In this document: piece by piece, positions 37,748 through 54,759 of the stretch
How positions within the stretch are numbered: the stretch's first letter is position 1
Layout: each line of letters opens with the position of its first letter
From: an uncultured Elusimicrobia bacterium
Lineage (GTDB): Bacteria; Elusimicrobiota; Elusimicrobia; Elusimicrobiales; Elusimicrobiaceae
DNA: 64,000 bases
Direction: 5' to 3'
NCBI GenBank assembly: GCA_945913025.1
Contig: CAMECJ010000001.1
Coordinates: 124,001-188,000 of the forward strand
Translations under genes and position numbers: made by a program
The notes under the pieces: model-generated
The model's database searches: none
The model's input: only the letters and a program-made list of their open reading frames with translations
Told to the model about the DNA's origin: nothing

Positions 37748-38040
37748 TATAATATACATATCTTAGATTAAGGAGAATATTGGCTGAAAAAGGCCCTGAA
37801 CCGGCCTGGAAAAATTTATCTGTTTTTGAAGCCGTCTGAACGGAAGACGGGTACTTGAATAAAGTTCACAAACAGTTCAAAAACAGTCGTTTTAGGCACA
37901 ATACACGCAAGCTGATCCCTTGCCCGTATTGTGCCAAGTGTTTGTCGTCTATCGGCAAACCACGGCTGTTATATTTGGGCTACTGTTTGTGGGCTCAGGA
38001 TAATGGCCGTTTTTATTGCCATAACTGAGCCCTGAGTATA
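37748..38040 (+). ncRNA. Candidate structured leader or small RNA upstream of pilin
   Basis: TATAAT (37748-37753), with TAGTCA 17 bp upstream, begins a stretch holding four hairpins in series. They are AGGCC/GGCCT (37791-37807), CCGTCT/AGACGG (37832-37850), GGCACAATAC/GTATTGTGCC (37895-37935, with an inner GCAAG/CTTGC), and GGGCTCAG/CTGAGCCC (37991-38032, with an inner ATGGC/GCCAT). No T-run ends it, so it may be a 5' leader of the pilin at 38054. The same bases also read as a Cys-rich frame (see 37780). I recognise no known RNA class. Confidence 0.5.
37780..38028 (+). pseudogene. Cys-rich zinc-ribbon-like reading frame with one in-frame TGA
   Basis: TTG 37780 follows AGGAG by 4 nt and reads 19 codons (MAEKGPEPAWKNLSVFEAV), then TGA at 37837-37839. 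The same frame continues 62 more codons to TGA 38026 without another stop. The second part has 'IPCPYCAKCLSSIGKPRLL', a later Cys, and ends 'RFYCHN', six Cys in 36 residues as in zinc ribbons. It could be a decayed gene, a gene restarting at TTG 37855, a recoded TGA, or chance within a structured RNA. No SECIS-like hairpin of the usual bacterial form follows the TGA. Confidence 0.35.
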
Positions 38041-38053
38041 GGAGAAAAAGTGT

Positions 38054-38554
38054 ATGGCAATAAAACATAACGGATTTACGCTTATTGAATTGTTGGTGGT
38101 TGTTCTTATTATTGGCATATTGACGGCGGTTGCCGTGCCGCAATATCAAAAAGCGGTGGAACGTGCAAGGTCCTCTGAAGCGTTGGTTAATGTGAAGGCG
38201 TTGGTTAGCGCCTTAAAAGTATATAAAATGGCAAATGGAACGATTACCGATGATTTAAGTCAGCTGGACATAGATTTAACGGGTAGATTAAGCCAAAACA
38301 ATAAACAATTAGCCTCTAATTTGTTTACCTACTCCATAAGTGATATTACATGTTACAGGATATATGCCAAGCGCAATAATCCGCAAAATATTCCTTCTTT
38401 ATCCTATACTATTTATTACAGGGATGAAACGGGTTATGTTTGCCATGCGGAAAATCCGGCCACATACTCTTTATGCCGCAGTATATGCAACGGGGCGGAA
38501 CTGTCTCTAATCTTAGTGGGAAGTGAGAGCGCAAAAGAGTGTGTCATAAAATAA
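38054..38554 (+). CDS. Type IV pilin-like protein (prepilin N-terminal motif)
   Basis: 166 residues with AGGAG 9 nt upstream. The prepilin signal is short and basic (MAIKHNG), followed by the class III cleavage/methylation motif FTLIELLVVVLIIGILTAVA with Glu at +5. The helix then runs 'VPQYQKAVERARSSEALVNV', typical of PilE/PulG proteins. The C-terminal head has Cys residues near 117, 137, 145, 149 and 164, allowing disulfide-bounded loops. Elusimicrobium genomes are known for many scattered pilin-like genes. No pilus assembly genes are nearby. Confidence 0.9.
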   Translation: MAIKHNGFTLIELLVVVLIIGILTAVAVPQYQKAVERARSSEALVNVKALVSALKVYKMANGTITDDLSQLDIDLTGRLSQNNKQLASNLFTYSISDITCYRIYAKRNNPQNIPSLSYTIYYRDETGYVCHAENPATYSLCRSICNGAELSLILVGSESAKECVIK

Positions 38555-48724: not shown

Positions 48725-49389
48725 TGTTTAAAATCATTCGGGCGTTCGGGGCTCCATGTTATTCCGCGCTTTACCACCTTGGCGGGATTTCCGGCCAACA
48801 CGCAACCCGGTTCTTTAAACTGTTTAGCTACCACCCCGTATGCTCCCACAATAGAATTATCCGCAATATAGGAATTTTTTAATACGGTGGAGTGCATCCC
48901 TAGCCAAACGTGGTTGCCGATAAAAACTTCTTTGCCCCAGTTTATCATTTCGCCGGTGCCTTGCAAAAAAACACTGTGCGTATCACTCGCCCAAATGTTA
49001 ATACCCCAAGAGAACATACACTCGTCGCCGATAATCACACGGGAGCCGTTATCCCCTAAAACTATATTCGTTCCGTTAGAAGAACACTTTTTACCGATAC
49101 GAATATAACAACCATCAACCAAATAATCAAAATTACCTATATTAATATCACCGTTCCAGCTCTTAACGGAAGGGTCTATTTCCAAGATATTATTTTTTCC
49201 AAAAATCCGCACTCCGCAACCCTCCGGCACATAAGGAATATGGTTATTTTCGCCGCATATGATTATTTTTTTAGAAGAATCCGAAGGATGATAAATATCT
49301 TTAATATATTTCCCCAAACAATGCACGGCCAGTAAAAATTTGGAATGTCCGTATTTATTTTTTAAAAGTGCTTTTTCTCTTTCTGTCAT
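48712..49389 (-). CDS. Hexapeptide-repeat acyltransferase
   Basis: 225 residues. A left-handed beta-helix is evident from repeated hexads ('GCYIRIGKKCSSNGTNIVLGDNGSRVIIGDECMFSWGINIWASDTHSV', 'VFIGNHVWLGMHSTVLKNSYIADNSIVGAYGVVAKQF'), with the catalytic-type His in 'SDTHSV' and the closing 'LAGNPAKVVKRGITW'. It belongs to the CatB/WbbJ-like xenobiotic and sugar O-acetyltransferases. Its start overlaps the stop of the glycosyltransferase fusion by 4 nt, so it likely acetylates the same surface glycan. Confidence 0.88.
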   Translation of the reverse strand: MTEREKALLKNKYGHSKFLLAVHCLGKYIKDIYHPSDSSKKIIICGENNHIPYVPEGCGVRIFGKNNILEIDPSVKSWNGDINIGNFDYLVDGCYIRIGKKCSSNGTNIVLGDNGSRVIIGDECMFSWGINIWASDTHSVFLQGTGEMINWGKEVFIGNHVWLGMHSTVLKNSYIADNSIVGAYGVVAKQFKEPGCVLAGNPAKVVKRGITWSPERPNDFKHKAP

Positions 49390-51512
49390 TTTGTGTTCTC
49401 CTTACCCGCTAACAAGTGGGAGTGTTCTATTTGTTCCAATACATATTCCGGCGACAGCGATTCCATACAGACGTGCTTCCCTTTAATACAGGCTTGCTGC
49501 CACGTTTTGGAATAAAATTCGCAGCATACGCTGCAAGCGGAAGAACGTAAATTAAGATTTTCCCCATACCCGTATACTACTGGAGAAGTAGGACCAAAAA
49601 ACACGCAGGAAGGCCCGCCTTTTAACGCGTGGCGCAAGTGAACCAGTCCGCCCTCGCAATCTATATGCAAAACGGCATTTTTCAAAACAGCCTTAATTTC
49701 CTCCAAAGAAGTTTTCCCCGCCAAATTGCGGTGCGTATTGCCAATTCTTTCTCCTTTCCCCGACCCGACTTCCAAAATTTCATAATTAGGATAACATTTC
49801 TTTAATTTTTTCACTAATTTACGGTAGTAAACAAGCGGCCACAATTTGGTACTTTCCGCAAGGCGTTCATGTCCCACTTCGCGGTTGACGGTAATATATT
49901 TCTTTCCGAGCAAATTAAATTTTCGCAGAACCGCTGCTTCATCTTTTACTTGCGGAGTAAAAACAAACTCTTCCCGCAGGTTAAATTCATCTACTATATC
50001 CGGCTGGTGCCAGCGTTTGGAGCAAGAAGAAAAGACATTATGGGTAAGGGAATCTTTATAGTGCGTTAATAAAAGCAGTTCCTTATTATCGCGCTCAAAA
50101 CGGAGTAACTTTTCCACATAGGCCAAAAGGTCCGGCGGCAGACGTTTCTCATCCGCGCTGACAACAACAGGACACCGCATAAGAGACAGAACCAAATCAT
50201 AAGAATAACGTTCCCATTCTCTCCGGGTAAGTTTTCTGCGGATAAAATCAGGCGCGAACGACTCCAATAATTTTTTATTGGGAAAAGCGGCGTCAATTCT
50301 TACCTCCGCCGTTCTGCCCAACTGTTCATAAAACGCACATAGCCAATTCAGTCCGATAAGCAGATCCCCCATTCCACCCTCAAACTGAATACATATCCGC
50401 ACCGGCCCGCTTAAGCTGTTTTTGCTGCGGCGATTGAAACGCAAACTGATTAAACAGGCCCATAACATATGAAACGCAATTTGCCAAACAGAATGGTACT
50501 TGTCCCCATACCGAAACAATCTCTCCTGTAAATATGTCAGTTGGCAAGACACATTCAAAGCCCTGCGCAAAACACTGCCGCTAAAATAGTGGGCAAAAAA
50601 TGCGGAGGATTGCGTTAACAACGCATTATCAGAAACACGCGCCGCACGGGATTCCTCCCGCGCTTTTTCCCGAATTTTGCCCTGCAGGCGCAAACATTCC
50701 CGCCATAAGCGGGGCGAAAACGAGAGTAAAAACCGCACCCAGCACATTGCCCGCATTTGTACAGATTGTACGTTTTTCCACATAAACAAAATGCGGTTCC
50801 GTTTGGACAAAAATTGTGTCCGCTTACTTTTTTTGCTGTTAATGGTGCCGCCGCACTTATGTTTTAAGCGCGTGTCGGGAGCGTAAAGGATCTTCCAGCC
50901 GCGTTTTAAACCGCGGTAGGCAAGGTCTGTTTCTTCCAACAAATACGGCGCCAATATTTCATCAAATCCGCCCAATTCGTCAAACTGCTTACGGTTGCAA
51001 AAAAAGTATGCCCCCTGCACCCCCCAGGAGGGATACTCCTCCAACGCAGGCAAAACACGATTGTAAAGGTTCTTGGTAAAACGCAAAAAACCGCTTTTAT
51101 ATTCTAATAATTTAAGGCCGTCCAACTGTTCCCATTCGCCCGCCGTTTTTGGATAAGCGGAATATCCCGCGCAAGTAACACAAAATACGTCAGGCCGCAG
51201 ATATTTTTCCGCCGTGATGAAAAAATCTTCATCTACAAAAACGTCGTTATCCAAAAAGCAAATCCAGTCGCACGAAAATTTATTTACCCCGCTGTTCCGC
51301 GCCGAACACGCCCCCTGCGAGGGGTTGGCAATAAACGTCACTTCCGGAAACAAACGCGGAGCTTCTTGCAACGTGCCGTCGGAGGAATGGTCATCCACCA
51401 CTACAAGCCGTATATTTCCGCCCCTTTTTTGTGCGGCCTTTATCACCGAGGGCAAGCAGTCTTTTAAATGATGCAGTCCGTTTTTTGAAGGGATAACGAC
51501 AGAAATTTCCAT
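49386..51512 (-). CDS. GT2-GT9 fusion glycosyltransferase
   Basis: 708 residues from ATG 51512, which follows GAGAGG and is the first codon with family similarity. Upstream frame is non-coding RNA. Residues 1-270 are a GT2 domain: 'MEISVVIPSKNGLHHLKDC', 'VVVDDHSSDGTLQEA', the DxD-like 'CFLDNDVFVDEDFF', and 'EETDLAYRGLKRGWKI'. A helical linker follows. Residues about 395-700 resemble heptosyltransferase-type GT9: 'IQFEGGMGDLLIGLNWLCAFYEQL', 'VGSGKGERIGNTHRNLAGKTSLEEIKAVLK' and 'HIDCEGGLVHLRHAL'. Two sugar-transfer steps of a surface polysaccharide may be joined in one protein. No membrane segment is present. Confidence 0.82.
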   Translation of the reverse strand: MEISVVIPSKNGLHHLKDCLPSVIKAAQKRGGNIRLVVVDDHSSDGTLQEAPRLFPEVTFIANPSQGACSARNSGVNKFSCDWICFLDNDVFVDEDFFITAEKYLRPDVFCVTCAGYSAYPKTAGEWEQLDGLKLLEYKSGFLRFTKNLYNRVLPALEEYPSWGVQGAYFFCNRKQFDELGGFDEILAPYLLEETDLAYRGLKRGWKILYAPDTRLKHKCGGTINSKKSKRTQFLSKRNRILFMWKNVQSVQMRAMCWVRFLLSFSPRLWRECLRLQGKIREKAREESRAARVSDNALLTQSSAFFAHYFSGSVLRRALNVSCQLTYLQERLFRYGDKYHSVWQIAFHMLWACLISLRFNRRSKNSLSGPVRICIQFEGGMGDLLIGLNWLCAFYEQLGRTAEVRIDAAFPNKKLLESFAPDFIRRKLTRREWERYSYDLVLSLMRCPVVVSADEKRLPPDLLAYVEKLLRFERDNKELLLLTHYKDSLTHNVFSSCSKRWHQPDIVDEFNLREEFVFTPQVKDEAAVLRKFNLLGKKYITVNREVGHERLAESTKLWPLVYYRKLVKKLKKCYPNYEILEVGSGKGERIGNTHRNLAGKTSLEEIKAVLKNAVLHIDCEGGLVHLRHALKGGPSCVFFGPTSPVVYGYGENLNLRSSACSVCCEFYSKTWQQACIKGKHVCMESLSPEYVLEQIEHSHLLAGKENTK

Positions 51513-51660
51513 AAAACCTCTCTTGGATTTAACCGTGGAGAGAAAGAGGCCGGACTCTTGGCGGAGGTCTTCGGCCCCTTTCTCTTCCATACGTCTGTGC
51601 TGAAACGTATGGAAACAGAAGGAATCCGAAGAAAAGGATAACAATAGGAAAACGAAGCAG
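51513..51660 (-). promoter_or_regulatory. Structured leader of the glycosyltransferase gene
   Basis: Two adjacent helices stand in the minus-strand leader: TTCCATACGT/ACGTATGGAA (10 bp, plus 51585-51614) and a 13-bp helix GAGAAAGGGGCCG/CGGCCTCTTTCTC containing one G-U pair (plus 51540-51584). A CTCTC segment at plus 51538-51542 (written as GAGAG) can instead pair with the GAGAGG Shine-Dalgarno at plus 51517-51522. It shares bases with the 13-bp helix, so the two states exclude one another. Confidence 0.5.
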
Positions 51661-51871
51661 AAAAAACGGCTGAATAACGCAAGTCTGAGAGAGTGCCTTG
51701 CCATTAAACAGCCGTGGTCTCGCGTATAAAATACGCGAAACACTCGGCAGAAGATAAAGGGCTCATGACTTCCCTCTACCTTCTGCCTAAACCAGCTGTT
51801 TTTTGGACTCTCTCAGAACTTTGGTTTCCCAAAGCCTTCCTATTCTTCATAGGATTCCAAAAAACAGATTA
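51661..51871 (-). ncRNA. Structured small RNA with pseudoknot, class unknown
   Basis: A promoter (TTGCAG, 18 bp, TAAAAT; plus 51878-51907) and an intrinsic terminator frame a transcript of about 210 nt. Helices, plus coordinates: outer CTGTTTTTTGGA/TCCAAAAAACAG (51796-51807 with 51856-51867); inside it CTTTGG/CCAAAG (51819-51834) and TCCTAT/ATAGGA (51838-51854). Then GGCAGAAG/CTTCTGCC (51746-51787), TCGCGTAT/ATACGCGA (51720-51738), and terminator ACGGCTG/CAGCCGT (51666-51715) with an inner GCAAG/CTTGC, then TTTTTT. ACTCTCTCAG (51807-51816) is complementary to CTGAGAGAGT (51685-51694), a 10-bp pseudoknot. It is not 6S, tmRNA, RNase P, SRP or a riboswitch I can name. Confidence 0.75.
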
Positions 51872-51877
51872 AATTGT

Positions 51878-51907
51878 ATTTTAGCCGCGTACGGCGGCGT
51901 ACTGCAA
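51878..51907 (-). promoter_or_regulatory. Promoter of the structured RNA
   Basis: Minus-strand TTGCAG and TAAAAT are 18 bp apart. The spacer contains a GC-rich dyad (GCCGC-CGTAC-GCGGC), which may also end the P-type ATPase transcript. Confidence 0.5.
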
Positions 51908-51923
51908 ATCTCCTAAATGATAT

Positions 51924-53822
51924 TTATTGTAGCATATTTTCTTTAAAATAAAGCGGCCTTAACGAATTGGCCACCGCCAACAAAGATACTCCCACGTCGG
52001 CAAACACCGCTTCCCACAAATTGGCGCAGCCCAATGCACCCGCCGCCAATACAACCGCTTTTACCGCGAGCGCAAACACAATGTTTTGGCGGATAATCTT
52101 CATTGTAAAACGCGCCTGACGCACTGCTGTAACCAATTTTCCGATTTCGTCCGTCATCAGCACCACGTCGGCGGCCTCAATGGCGGCGTCGGAGCCGAGG
52201 CCACCCATCGCAACGGATAAATCCGCCCGCGCCAACACGGGCGCGTCGTTTACGCCGTCTCCGGCAAACGCCGTAGCATATCCGCGCGGAGTTTGGGCTA
52301 TAAAACTTTCCAGCTTAGCCACTTTATCCGCCGGTAATAACCCACCGAAGGAGTGCGTTATCCCCAGTTCTCCGGCGGTTTTCCGCACGGCGGACGGCGC
52401 GTCCCCGCTGAGAATAACAATATCCCGCACCAACCCGTTTTGGAGCGTTTTCACGGCGGATGCGGCTCCTTCTTTTAGTCTATCGCCCAATACTATTGTT
52501 CCCTTCCACACGCCGTTTTGCGCAACAAAAACGCAGGATCCTTCCGCCGCAGGCACGGACACGTGATAACGCGACATCAAACGCGCGTTTCCGGCTAAAA
52601 TTTGTTCTTTTTCCCCCTGGGCGCAAATGCCCTCGCCCGCAATTTCTTTGACATTACACTCGCCGTCAGCTGAAATATTCTCTTGCCGTGCGGCGCGAAG
52701 GAGAGCCTTGGCCGCAGGATGATTGGAATACCGCTCTGCCCGGGCGGCTAAACGCAAAACCTCCCGGCGCGTGACGCCCTCTGCGGAACGGACACCCAAT
52801 ACTTCAAATACGCCTTGGGTCAGCGTACCGGTTTTATCAAAGGCTAGCGTGCCGATTTTCGCCAAGCGTTCTAAAAAAGCGCTACCCTTAATCAGTATAC
52901 CGTGCTTCGCCGCGCCGCCAATCCCGCCGAAAAACCCCAACGGAACGGATAATACCAGTGCACACGGGCACGAAGCCACCAAAAACACAAGCGCGCGGGA
53001 TAACCAGGTTTTAAAGGAGGCGTCCGAAATAAGCAGCGGCGGCAGTACGGCCAGTAACACCGCGCCGCCTACCACAACGGGCGTATACAGACGGGCAAAA
53101 CGCGTGATAAATTTCTCAGCGGCGGATTTTTTTTGCGAAGCGTGTTCGGCCAGTTCCAAAATTTTGGCAACGGCGGAATCTTGATATAATTTTTCTACGC
53201 GCACCGTCAGTGTTCCGTCCACACACACGCTTCCGGCCCAAACGGCAGTTCCCGTGCGCGCGCTGACCGGACGGGATTCCCCCGTCAGCGCCGACGCATC
53301 CATACCGCTTTTACCCTTAACCACTACGCCGTCCAGCGCAATTTTTTCGCCGGCAAAAACCAGCATTTCCTGCCCGATTTGAACCTCTTTCGGCGCCTTT
53401 TTCACTTCGCGTCCGTTTTCCGTCACCCGCGCAAACGCAGGACGCAAATCAAGCAGTTTAACGATATTCCTGCGCGAAGCCCCCGCCGCGCGGTCCTGTA
53501 AAGTTTCACCGATTTGATAAAAAAGCATTACGGCGGCCGCTTCCGGATACTCACCAATCGCAAACGCGCCCAGACTGGCGACGGACATTAAAAAGTGTTC
53601 ATCAAACACGCGCCCTTTTAGAAGGTTGCGTCCGGCACGCAAAAGGACGTCATATCCGCTGAGTAGATATGATGCCGTCAAAAGCGCTATTTTTGCCCAT
53701 GGCGCAGCAATAAATAACCCCACCACAAACAGCGCGCAGGCCAACCACAAACGCAGCCAAATACGTTTTTCCGTTTTGCCGTGCGTGCAGCCACAGGAAT
53801 GACAGTGACAGTGTTCGCTCAT
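51924..53822 (-). CDS. Heavy-metal P-type ATPase (Zn/Cd/Pb type)
   Basis: 632 residues. In place of a full HMA domain the N-terminus has a Cys/His cluster (MSEHCHCHSCGCTH). The P1B features are 'GESRPVSARTG', the metal-channel CPC at 285-287 ('SCPCALVLSVPLG'), phosphorylated Asp329 in DKTGTLTQG, 'HPAAKAL' and 'GDGVNDAPVLARADLSVAMG'. CPC plus the ArsR regulator points to export of Zn2+, Cd2+ or Pb2+. Its ATG overlaps the repressor stop by 4 nt. Confidence 0.93.
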   Translation of the reverse strand: MSEHCHCHSCGCTHGKTEKRIWLRLWLACALFVVGLFIAAPWAKIALLTASYLLSGYDVLLRAGRNLLKGRVFDEHFLMSVASLGAFAIGEYPEAAAVMLFYQIGETLQDRAAGASRRNIVKLLDLRPAFARVTENGREVKKAPKEVQIGQEMLVFAGEKIALDGVVVKGKSGMDASALTGESRPVSARTGTAVWAGSVCVDGTLTVRVEKLYQDSAVAKILELAEHASQKKSAAEKFITRFARLYTPVVVGGAVLLAVLPPLLISDASFKTWLSRALVFLVASCPCALVLSVPLGFFGGIGGAAKHGILIKGSAFLERLAKIGTLAFDKTGTLTQGVFEVLGVRSAEGVTRREVLRLAARAERYSNHPAAKALLRAARQENISADGECNVKEIAGEGICAQGEKEQILAGNARLMSRYHVSVPAAEGSCVFVAQNGVWKGTIVLGDRLKEGAASAVKTLQNGLVRDIVILSGDAPSAVRKTAGELGITHSFGGLLPADKVAKLESFIAQTPRGYATAFAGDGVNDAPVLARADLSVAMGGLGSDAAIEAADVVLMTDEIGKLVTAVRQARFTMKIIRQNIVFALAVKAVVLAAGALGCANLWEAVFADVGVSLLAVANSLRPLYFKENMLQ

Positions 53823-54312: not shown

Positions 54313-54759
54313 ATGAATCAAGGTTTTACCCTTATTGAACTATTGGTGGTCGTGCTGATTCTCGGCATTTTGGCGGCGATTGCCTTGCCGCAGTACGAAC
54401 TGGCGGTGGAAAAATCCCGCACGGCGGAAGTATTTGTAGTGGCCAAAGCCATTATGGACGCCGCACAACGCTATGAGCAAGCTAACCCGAATAATACGCC
54501 GACCACCTTTAGCCAACTGGGCGACATAGACTTAAAAGGCGGTAGTATCAGCGCAAACGTATTTGCCACGAAAAATTTCGTTTATCTGTTAACCCCCTCC
54601 AATGGATACGCTTCTTTGACTGTGCGGAGAGTCGACAATGGAGAAGAATTATATCAAGTGGCATTCTACTCCCATGATGACCCCAGCAAAAGAGAGCCGA
54701 GCTGCGTCCCTACTATAGAAGACTATGCGCCTATTTGCGCATTGTTTGAAAACATTTAA
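54313..54759 (+). CDS. Type IV pilin-like protein
   Basis: 148 residues with AGGAGAGAGG just upstream. The very short leader (MNQG) precedes FTLIELLVVVLILGILAAIA, the class III prepilin motif with Glu5, then 'LPQYELAVEKSRTAEVFVVAKAIMDAAQRYEQANP'. The head domain ends with a Cys pair 'SCVPTIEDYAPICALFENI', the disulfide loop of PilE-type pilins. It is a single gene between the metal-export operon and the cell-wall cluster, with its own promoter and terminator. Head domain and Cys spacing differ from those of the pilin at 38054. Confidence 0.9.
   Translation: MNQGFTLIELLVVVLILGILAAIALPQYELAVEKSRTAEVFVVAKAIMDAAQRYEQANPNNTPTTFSQLGDIDLKGGSISANVFATKNFVYLLTPSNGYASLTVRRVDNGEELYQVAFYSHDDPSKREPSCVPTIEDYAPICALFENI

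Follow-up and report, generated by a model that had tools for sequence, protein, structure and literature searches.

A high-copy family of structured leader RNAs, probably transcription attenuators, in Elusimicrobiaceae

The window analyzed here is a 64,000-nucleotide stretch of the genome of an uncultured Elusimicrobia bacterium. Between the genes for a metal ATPase and a family 2 glycosyltransferase, its minus strand is free of genes at positions 51661-51871 and holds a structured RNA, whose fold energy of -91.3 kcal/mol compares with -54.9 ± 4.4 kcal/mol in 200 shuffles (z = -8.2). An earlier note, made from the letters alone, had described five near-perfect helices on this strand, a 10-nt pseudoknot complement and a terminator followed by a T run, and all of these are present (Table 1). 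The helices are P1 to P5, and the terminator stem pairs ACGGCUG (51715-51709) with CAGCCGU (51672-51666) ahead of six U. The two arms of the pseudoknot (PK), CUGAGAGAGU (51816-51807) and ACUCUCUCAG (51694-51685), are exactly complementary over 10 nt, at the positions that the note had given.

Table 1 Features of the leader RNA and its surroundings in the window.
Feature	Position	Strand	Basis
Whole conserved leader element	51661-51878	-	cmsearch, full match to covariance model R1 (built partly from the window copy itself), 220.5 bits, E 5e-48
Putative extended -10 promoter, TGCTACAAT	51926-51934	-	motif enrichment; overlaps end of ATPase gene
S1, the P1 5' arm, CUGUUUUUUGGA	51856-51867	-	sequence; P1 cells 98.3% paired in A2
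P1 helix	51867-51856 with 51807-51796	-	sequence, fold
P2 hairpin, UCCUAU/AUAGGA	51838-51854	-	two-sided changes at all 5 pairs
P3 hairpin, CUUUGG-GAAA-CCAAAG	51819-51834	-	fold; relatives keep position, not loop
PK 5' arm, CUGAGAGAGU	51807-51816	-	covariation at all 9 modelled pairs
S2, partner of S1 (P1) or, via AACAGCUG at 51800-51793, of S3 (antiterminator)	51793-51807	-	S2:S3 99.5% of cells paired, 85 sequences of A5
P4 long hairpin; apical loop AAGUCAUGAG at 51771-51762, palindrome UCAUGA at 51768-51763	51746-51787	-	family-wide loop self-complementarity
P5 hairpin	51717-51741	-	two-sided changes at 10 of 11 pairs
S3, CGGCUGUU, partner of S2 (antiterminator) or S4 (terminator)	51707-51714	-	folding, covariation
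P7 hairpin, GCAAG/CUUGC; loop holds PK 3' arm ACUCUCUCAG (51694-51685)	51679-51701	-	sequence, alignment
S4 and U tract, 3' arm of intrinsic terminator, CAGCCGUUUUUU	51661-51672	-	sequence; terminator stem 90.8% of cells paired
Second structured element: hairpin, then longer hairpin with motif CCUCCGCCAAGAG on one side	51525-51637	-	homologous stretches beside other leaders
Family 2 glycosyltransferase gene behind the leader, ATG at 51512-51510	49386-51512	-	Pfam PF00535, E 3e-19
Second copy of the leader family	37810-38015	+	cmsearch, 142 bits, E 3e-30
Prepilin-like gene behind the second copy, start codon 39 nt past the leader	38054-38554	+	Pfam N_methyl, E 7e-8

The gap between the terminator and the ATG of the glycosyltransferase gene is 148 nt and is occupied by a second structured element; the note had claimed a second structured leader at this place, and two hairpins are indeed found there. 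Homologous stretches occur at a handful of loci (including L010, L126, L222, L350, and L361), several of them adjoining leaders of the kind described here, and the element precedes several surface-sugar genes (glycosyltransferase, sugar dehydratase-like). It is possibly a separate leader or an antitermination element.

The claim that the RNA has its own promoter held only in part. A consensus scan found no -35/-10 pair on this strand, but an extended -10 motif lies upstream, and the corresponding TGnTAYAMT motif precedes 121 of 216 copies at several spacings, where 5.6 would be expected from shuffles. Because of this motif and its enrichment before the copies, the window transcript probably starts near 51919 rather than at 51871. 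TACAAT directly before P1 was considered as a -10 box and rejected, as its letters, unlike those of a -10, are conserved and the clear extended -10 lies further upstream. In many copies of the same genome, an inverted repeat of variable sequence, often preceded by AGGAG, stands between the promoter and P1 (51884-51913, minus strand, in the window), with a mean energy of -8.1 kcal/mol against -4.6 kcal/mol when shuffled.

The RNA belongs to a previously uncatalogued family that is absent from Rfam. The earlier note had found it unlike any of the large RNA classes that it listed, and none of the 4227 models of Rfam 15 matched the window at its curated gathering score. A permissive scan of 51500-51930 gave only weak matches, far below the cut-offs, and ten further loci with their flanks matched no Rfam family. 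In particular, the aptamer cores of c-di-GMP-I and -II had no covariance-model match in the window, in 51500-51930, or in the ten further loci. Our literature search found no riboswitch report for the phylum Elusimicrobiota.

A homologue search in Elusimicrobiota had been proposed in the note; it returned many relatives, and the element is no singleton. Relatives independent of the window copy come from blastn: with 261 bases as the query, nine matching places were found in the same genome before any model existed, and 24 other genomes of the genus had matches, while none of 24 genomes from another family of the order did. From 29 of the blastn-found copies a covariance model was made, which detected the family in 61 of the 66 genomes of Candidatus Avelusimicrobium, the genomes being MAG assemblies. 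There are about 18 copies in the genome that holds the window (G000), ~46 in G071, and at least 129 matches in G070 at E below 1e-5, the E-values being rough, from a short calibration. Contigs C15 and C16 of G071 share the same starting stretch (bases 7-140), which matches part of the model; this suggests that assemblies are broken at these repeats, and the copy numbers may therefore be underestimates. Since a few genomes of the genus carry no confident copy, the system is dispensable.

Phylum-wide, copies were found in this genus, in a second genus of the same family (g15), and in a distant family (f21), where 14 genomes have them; no other of the 341 phylum genomes had a copy at the strict filter. 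When relatives that lack copies were searched more sensitively, any matches were weak or degenerate. Among named genomes, a pattern scan placed the family in rumen and gut Elusimicrobiaceae, Candidatus Avelusimicrobium among them. A Microthrix match from that scan (L160) had no model match and was dismissed as chance or a stray contig.

The genes behind the leaders lie on the same strand, usually with 28-50 nt between terminator and start codon, and a Shine-Dalgarno sequence is present in the gaps looked at. Most of these genes are prepilin-like, as called by the N-terminal motif (GFTLIE/AFTLVE): such a gene directly follows 82 of the 84 copies in G070 and 39 of the 44 in G071, making 121 of 128 downstream genes type IV prepilin-like in the two richest genomes analyzed, and 11 of the 17 in the genome of the window. 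In the distant family f21, it does so in only 5 of 29 cases. According to Pfam, the other targets include family 2 and 8 glycosyltransferases, sulfatase-domain proteins, a pyruvyl transferase, lipoproteins, EcoRI-type and N6/N4 methylases, and SNF2/PLD helicases. The pilin, surface-sugar, and DNA methylase genes in this set suggest a repertoire of variable surface and defence genes that are switched on or off. N_methyl matches number 111 in the genome of the window (1.76 Mb), 113 in G071, at least 150 in G070, and 50 in G065. Leaders thus accompany only a subset of these genes, and in the genome of the window only a minority, with 11 leader-pilin pairs against 111 matches. The window itself contains a further prepilin gene (54313-54759, plus strand) without a leader match.

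Because the copies stand at a short distance before genes on the same strand, they are placed as cis-acting leaders, and a transcription attenuator is the most likely identity of the family. The contrast that the note had drawn with a leader, on the ground that this RNA ends in its own terminator, is not supported, as the terminators of the relatives sit 28-50 nt before a same-strand start codon, the same layout as in an ordinary attenuator. The note had left the choice between an attenuator and a trans-acting RNA; the position favours the former and makes an RNA that acts only in trans the less likely of the two. A free-standing small RNA, whose terminated 210-nt product would be functional and whose closeness to genes would be incidental, could account for the promoter motif and terminator, the discrete size, and the kissing-type loops described below. 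It is nevertheless very unlikely: all 84 copies in G070 have a same-strand ORF start within 400 nt, 82 of these ORFs being prepilin-like and 77 starting at 28-50 nt, and the gaps leave little room for another promoter. The terminated leaders of an attenuator could still act in trans.

RfaH and LoaP operons encode pili and surface sugars, much like the target list here. A protein-dependent leader of this type, or a mobile repeat (MITE), in place of an RNA switch would suit these targets and the very high copy number, but we regard either as highly improbable. Each of eight genomes, carriers and non-carriers alike, has a single NusG-family gene and thus no dedicated NusG paralogue that could serve as such a factor. 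The orientation and the distance to the gene are fixed, and what the copies conserve is structure and not sequence. Viral contigs gave no match to the exact pattern, which, being limited to that pattern, is a weak test for a virus-borne mobile element.

The preferred reading, a cis-acting attenuator, is supported by the covariation of the helices. In A2, a MAFFT alignment that was not fitted to the model, 94.5% of the cells of P1, P2, PK, P4, P5, and the terminator are paired, against 39-49% in slid controls, and 333 cells are two-sided, against 103 ± 8 in shuffles; none of 500 shuffles reaches any of the measures. The note had named the outer 12-bp stem and the pseudoknot as the places where covariation should be sought; covariation is strong, with all 9 modelled PK pairs covarying, and the P1 cells are 98.3% paired. 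Given A2, RNAalifold chose, unprompted, PK together with S2:S3, a combination that excludes P1 and the terminator. In A5, which comprises 85 sequences from one genome, 99.5% of the S2:S3 cells are paired; at two S2 positions that P1 does not use, only C or U occurs, each facing an invariant G of S3.

Minimum-energy folding gives both structures, depending on the length of the RNA (nested energies, ignoring pseudoknots, tertiary contacts, and kinetics). The full element takes P1 and the terminator in 181 of 189 copies, whereas the element stopped before S4 takes S2:S3 and PK in 175 of 189; the window copy has the same two folds at the same two lengths. Two exclusive folds are thus conserved, P1 with the terminator and S2:S3 with PK as the antiterminator. 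The suggestion in the note that the pseudoknot might act as an antiterminator agrees with the folds before S4, and its idea of a new attenuator class fits an RNA that belongs to no known family and has a covarying pseudoknot.

With a short and nearly constant distance to the gene, from which the window copy departs with its 148 nt, and with a terminator and an exclusive antiterminator both conserved by covariation and folding, the leader is probably a transcription attenuator with two exclusive folds before the downstream gene, and we consider it probable that the two folds control read-through in the cell. Polymerase would start just upstream and make, in order, S1, P2, P3, the PK 5' arm, S2, P4, P5, S3, and the PK 3' arm. 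At this last point, the antiterminator would be the most stable structure, with S2 paired to S3 and clamped by the PK helix. Once S4 has been made, S1:S2 together with the intrinsic terminator S3:S4 would be more stable, and transcription would halt before the gene. The gene would be read only if the PK-clamped antiterminator persists until polymerase has passed, and the balance may be set by a ligand, a protein, or dimerization of the leader. A repeat of S2, UCCAAAAACAG, was considered as a third partner of S1 and rejected, occurring in only 41 of 250 copies. It lies between the terminator and the Shine-Dalgarno sequence, mostly in G071 and G000, where it could pair with S1 after read-through.

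A ligand-binding riboswitch would be the same attenuator with its trigger specified: binding of a small molecule, for instance a second messenger, to the three-way junction formed by S2:S3, P4, and P5, or to the core of P1, P2, P3, and PK, would keep the antiterminator. The leader has a terminator and an antiterminator as well as conserved junction nucleotides (GARU and YAC), and in Clostridioides difficile a c-di-GMP-II riboswitch controls pilA1 by read-through (PMC6366702). Against this, no Rfam aptamer matches, the c-di-GMP classes included, the S1-S4 pairing explains most of the sequence conservation, the target genes are very mixed, and no large unpaired pocket pointing to a ligand is conserved in the family. 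We hold a ligand to be possible but less than probable.

Strict pairing in the pseudoknot goes along with a nearly free sequence. Watson-Crick pairs make up 98.5% and G.U pairs 0.6% at the nine modelled positions (G.U is 8.8% in P5 and 11.6% in P4) among copies found with a model that includes PK, which favours PK-keeping copies and under-samples those without it. Entropy is 1.72 of 2 bits, and 138 copies have 121 different 5' arms; even where the downstream proteins share 94-96% identity, the PK sequences of the leaders can be unrelated. We read this as fast compensatory change under strict pairing. Diversifying selection for orthogonality within a genome was considered and rejected, as the PK barcodes of one genome are about as different as column-shuffled ones and identical barcodes are in excess: an identical 9-nt PK is shared in 18 pairs of diverged leaders, which come from different genomes and precede different types of gene, against 0.7 expected. 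Selection for mutual insulation through PK is possible. At one locus (L271:1268-1697), tandem leaders before a single EcoRI-type methylase gene have the same PK, AGTTACCAG, and are 27% different in the rest; the same PK also occurs at L261.

The apical loop of P4 shows another kind of constraint. About 95% of copies have a self-complementary loop here; some 17 palindromes are represented, and their cores include UAAUUA, UCAUGA, UUAUAA, UUCGAA, UUGCAA, CUCGAG, UCUAGA, CUGCAG, GAUC, and AGCU. A palindrome of at least 6 nt is found in 157 of 246 copies and one of 4 nt in 72, the null values being 6% and 31% per distinct loop; six further copies carry a GACG tetraloop in P4. As a control, the P5 loops of the same RNAs have a 6-nt palindrome in 0 of 39. 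An internal partner for the P4 palindrome was sought in the leader, and none was found, as the palindrome does not recur elsewhere in it. In OLE RNA, palindrome switching among GGCC, GAUC, and AGCU served as covariation evidence for symmetric kissing loops (PMC12286853), and in retroviral RNA, GACG loops form homodimers (PMC7357161).

As in OLE, the P4 palindrome changes while its self-complementarity stays, and GACG is a known homodimer loop; for these two reasons, homodimerization is the simplest reading of the P4 loops, and we think it rather likely that they join one RNA molecule to another by a symmetric kissing contact. That dimerization is linked to termination is a guess. If it were, kissing with a terminated or second nascent leader would shift the balance between terminator and antiterminator, and leaders sharing a palindrome would cross-regulate. 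This sensing of homodimers is in line with the frequency and variety of the self-complementary loops, the GACG copies, the lack of an internal partner, and the OLE and retroviral precedents. However, dimerization may only aid folding, leaders made from the chromosome may be too low in concentration, some palindromes are just 4 nt and many are A/U rich, and nothing visible connects P4 with the switch, so that we put it forward tentatively, as a rather doubtful proposal. Less likely still is a scheme in which leaders dimerize via P4 and terminated leaders report on and cross-regulate entire sets of variable surface and DNA-modification genes, each leader insulated by its own PK sequence. If true, it would amount to an RNA-only network over contingency genes, with more than 100 nodes in one 1.7-Mb genome.

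The family is a new one of structured cis-regulatory RNAs, unusually high in copy number with 129 matches in one genome. It could show how a single RNA design governs an entire repertoire of variable genes, and the leaders offer a handle on the choice among the more than 100 prepilin genes of these bacteria and, should the kissing loop prove real, on how RNA dimerization regulates genes. With dozens of natural variants per genome, in which helices are rewritten and folds kept, they also provide a test bed for the selection of exclusive folds.

Among known systems, trp-type attenuators and terminator/antiterminator riboswitches share with these leaders the exclusive pairing, among four segments ahead of the regulated gene, of 1:2 and 3:4 (terminator) versus 2:3 (antiterminator). 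Here, however, no leader peptide or known aptamer is seen, a hypervariable helix of 9-10 bp joining two domains clamps the antiterminator, and there are tens to more than 100 copies per genome. In the guanidine-II riboswitch, the loop ACGR is conserved and binds guanidinium, whereas the P4 loop is free in sequence and keeps only self-complementarity. That riboswitch is likewise a short leader RNA with kissing hairpin loops (PMC7544219), a contact that is predicted for P4. The layout also resembles that of Cdi-2-4, the c-di-GMP class II riboswitch of pilA1 in Clostridioides difficile, where a leader terminator controls a type IV pilin by read-through (PMC6366702), but the architecture is different and no Rfam c-di-GMP family matches.

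For the P4 loop, the closest parallels lie elsewhere. In OLE, ROOL, and GOLLD, symmetric kissing loops with evolving palindromes hold identical RNAs together (PMC12286853), and P4 looks alike; those are larger stand-alone RNAs solved as multimers, whereas the present RNA is a 210-nt cis leader whose dimer is a prediction. The HIV-1 dimerization initiation site and the GACG loops of MoMuLV similarly use a 6-nt apical palindrome or a GACG tetraloop as the homodimer contact (PMC7357161), but they serve the packaging of a viral genome and have a GC-rich palindrome with purine flanks, where P4 has many palindromes, mostly A/U rich, with flanks that are often C.
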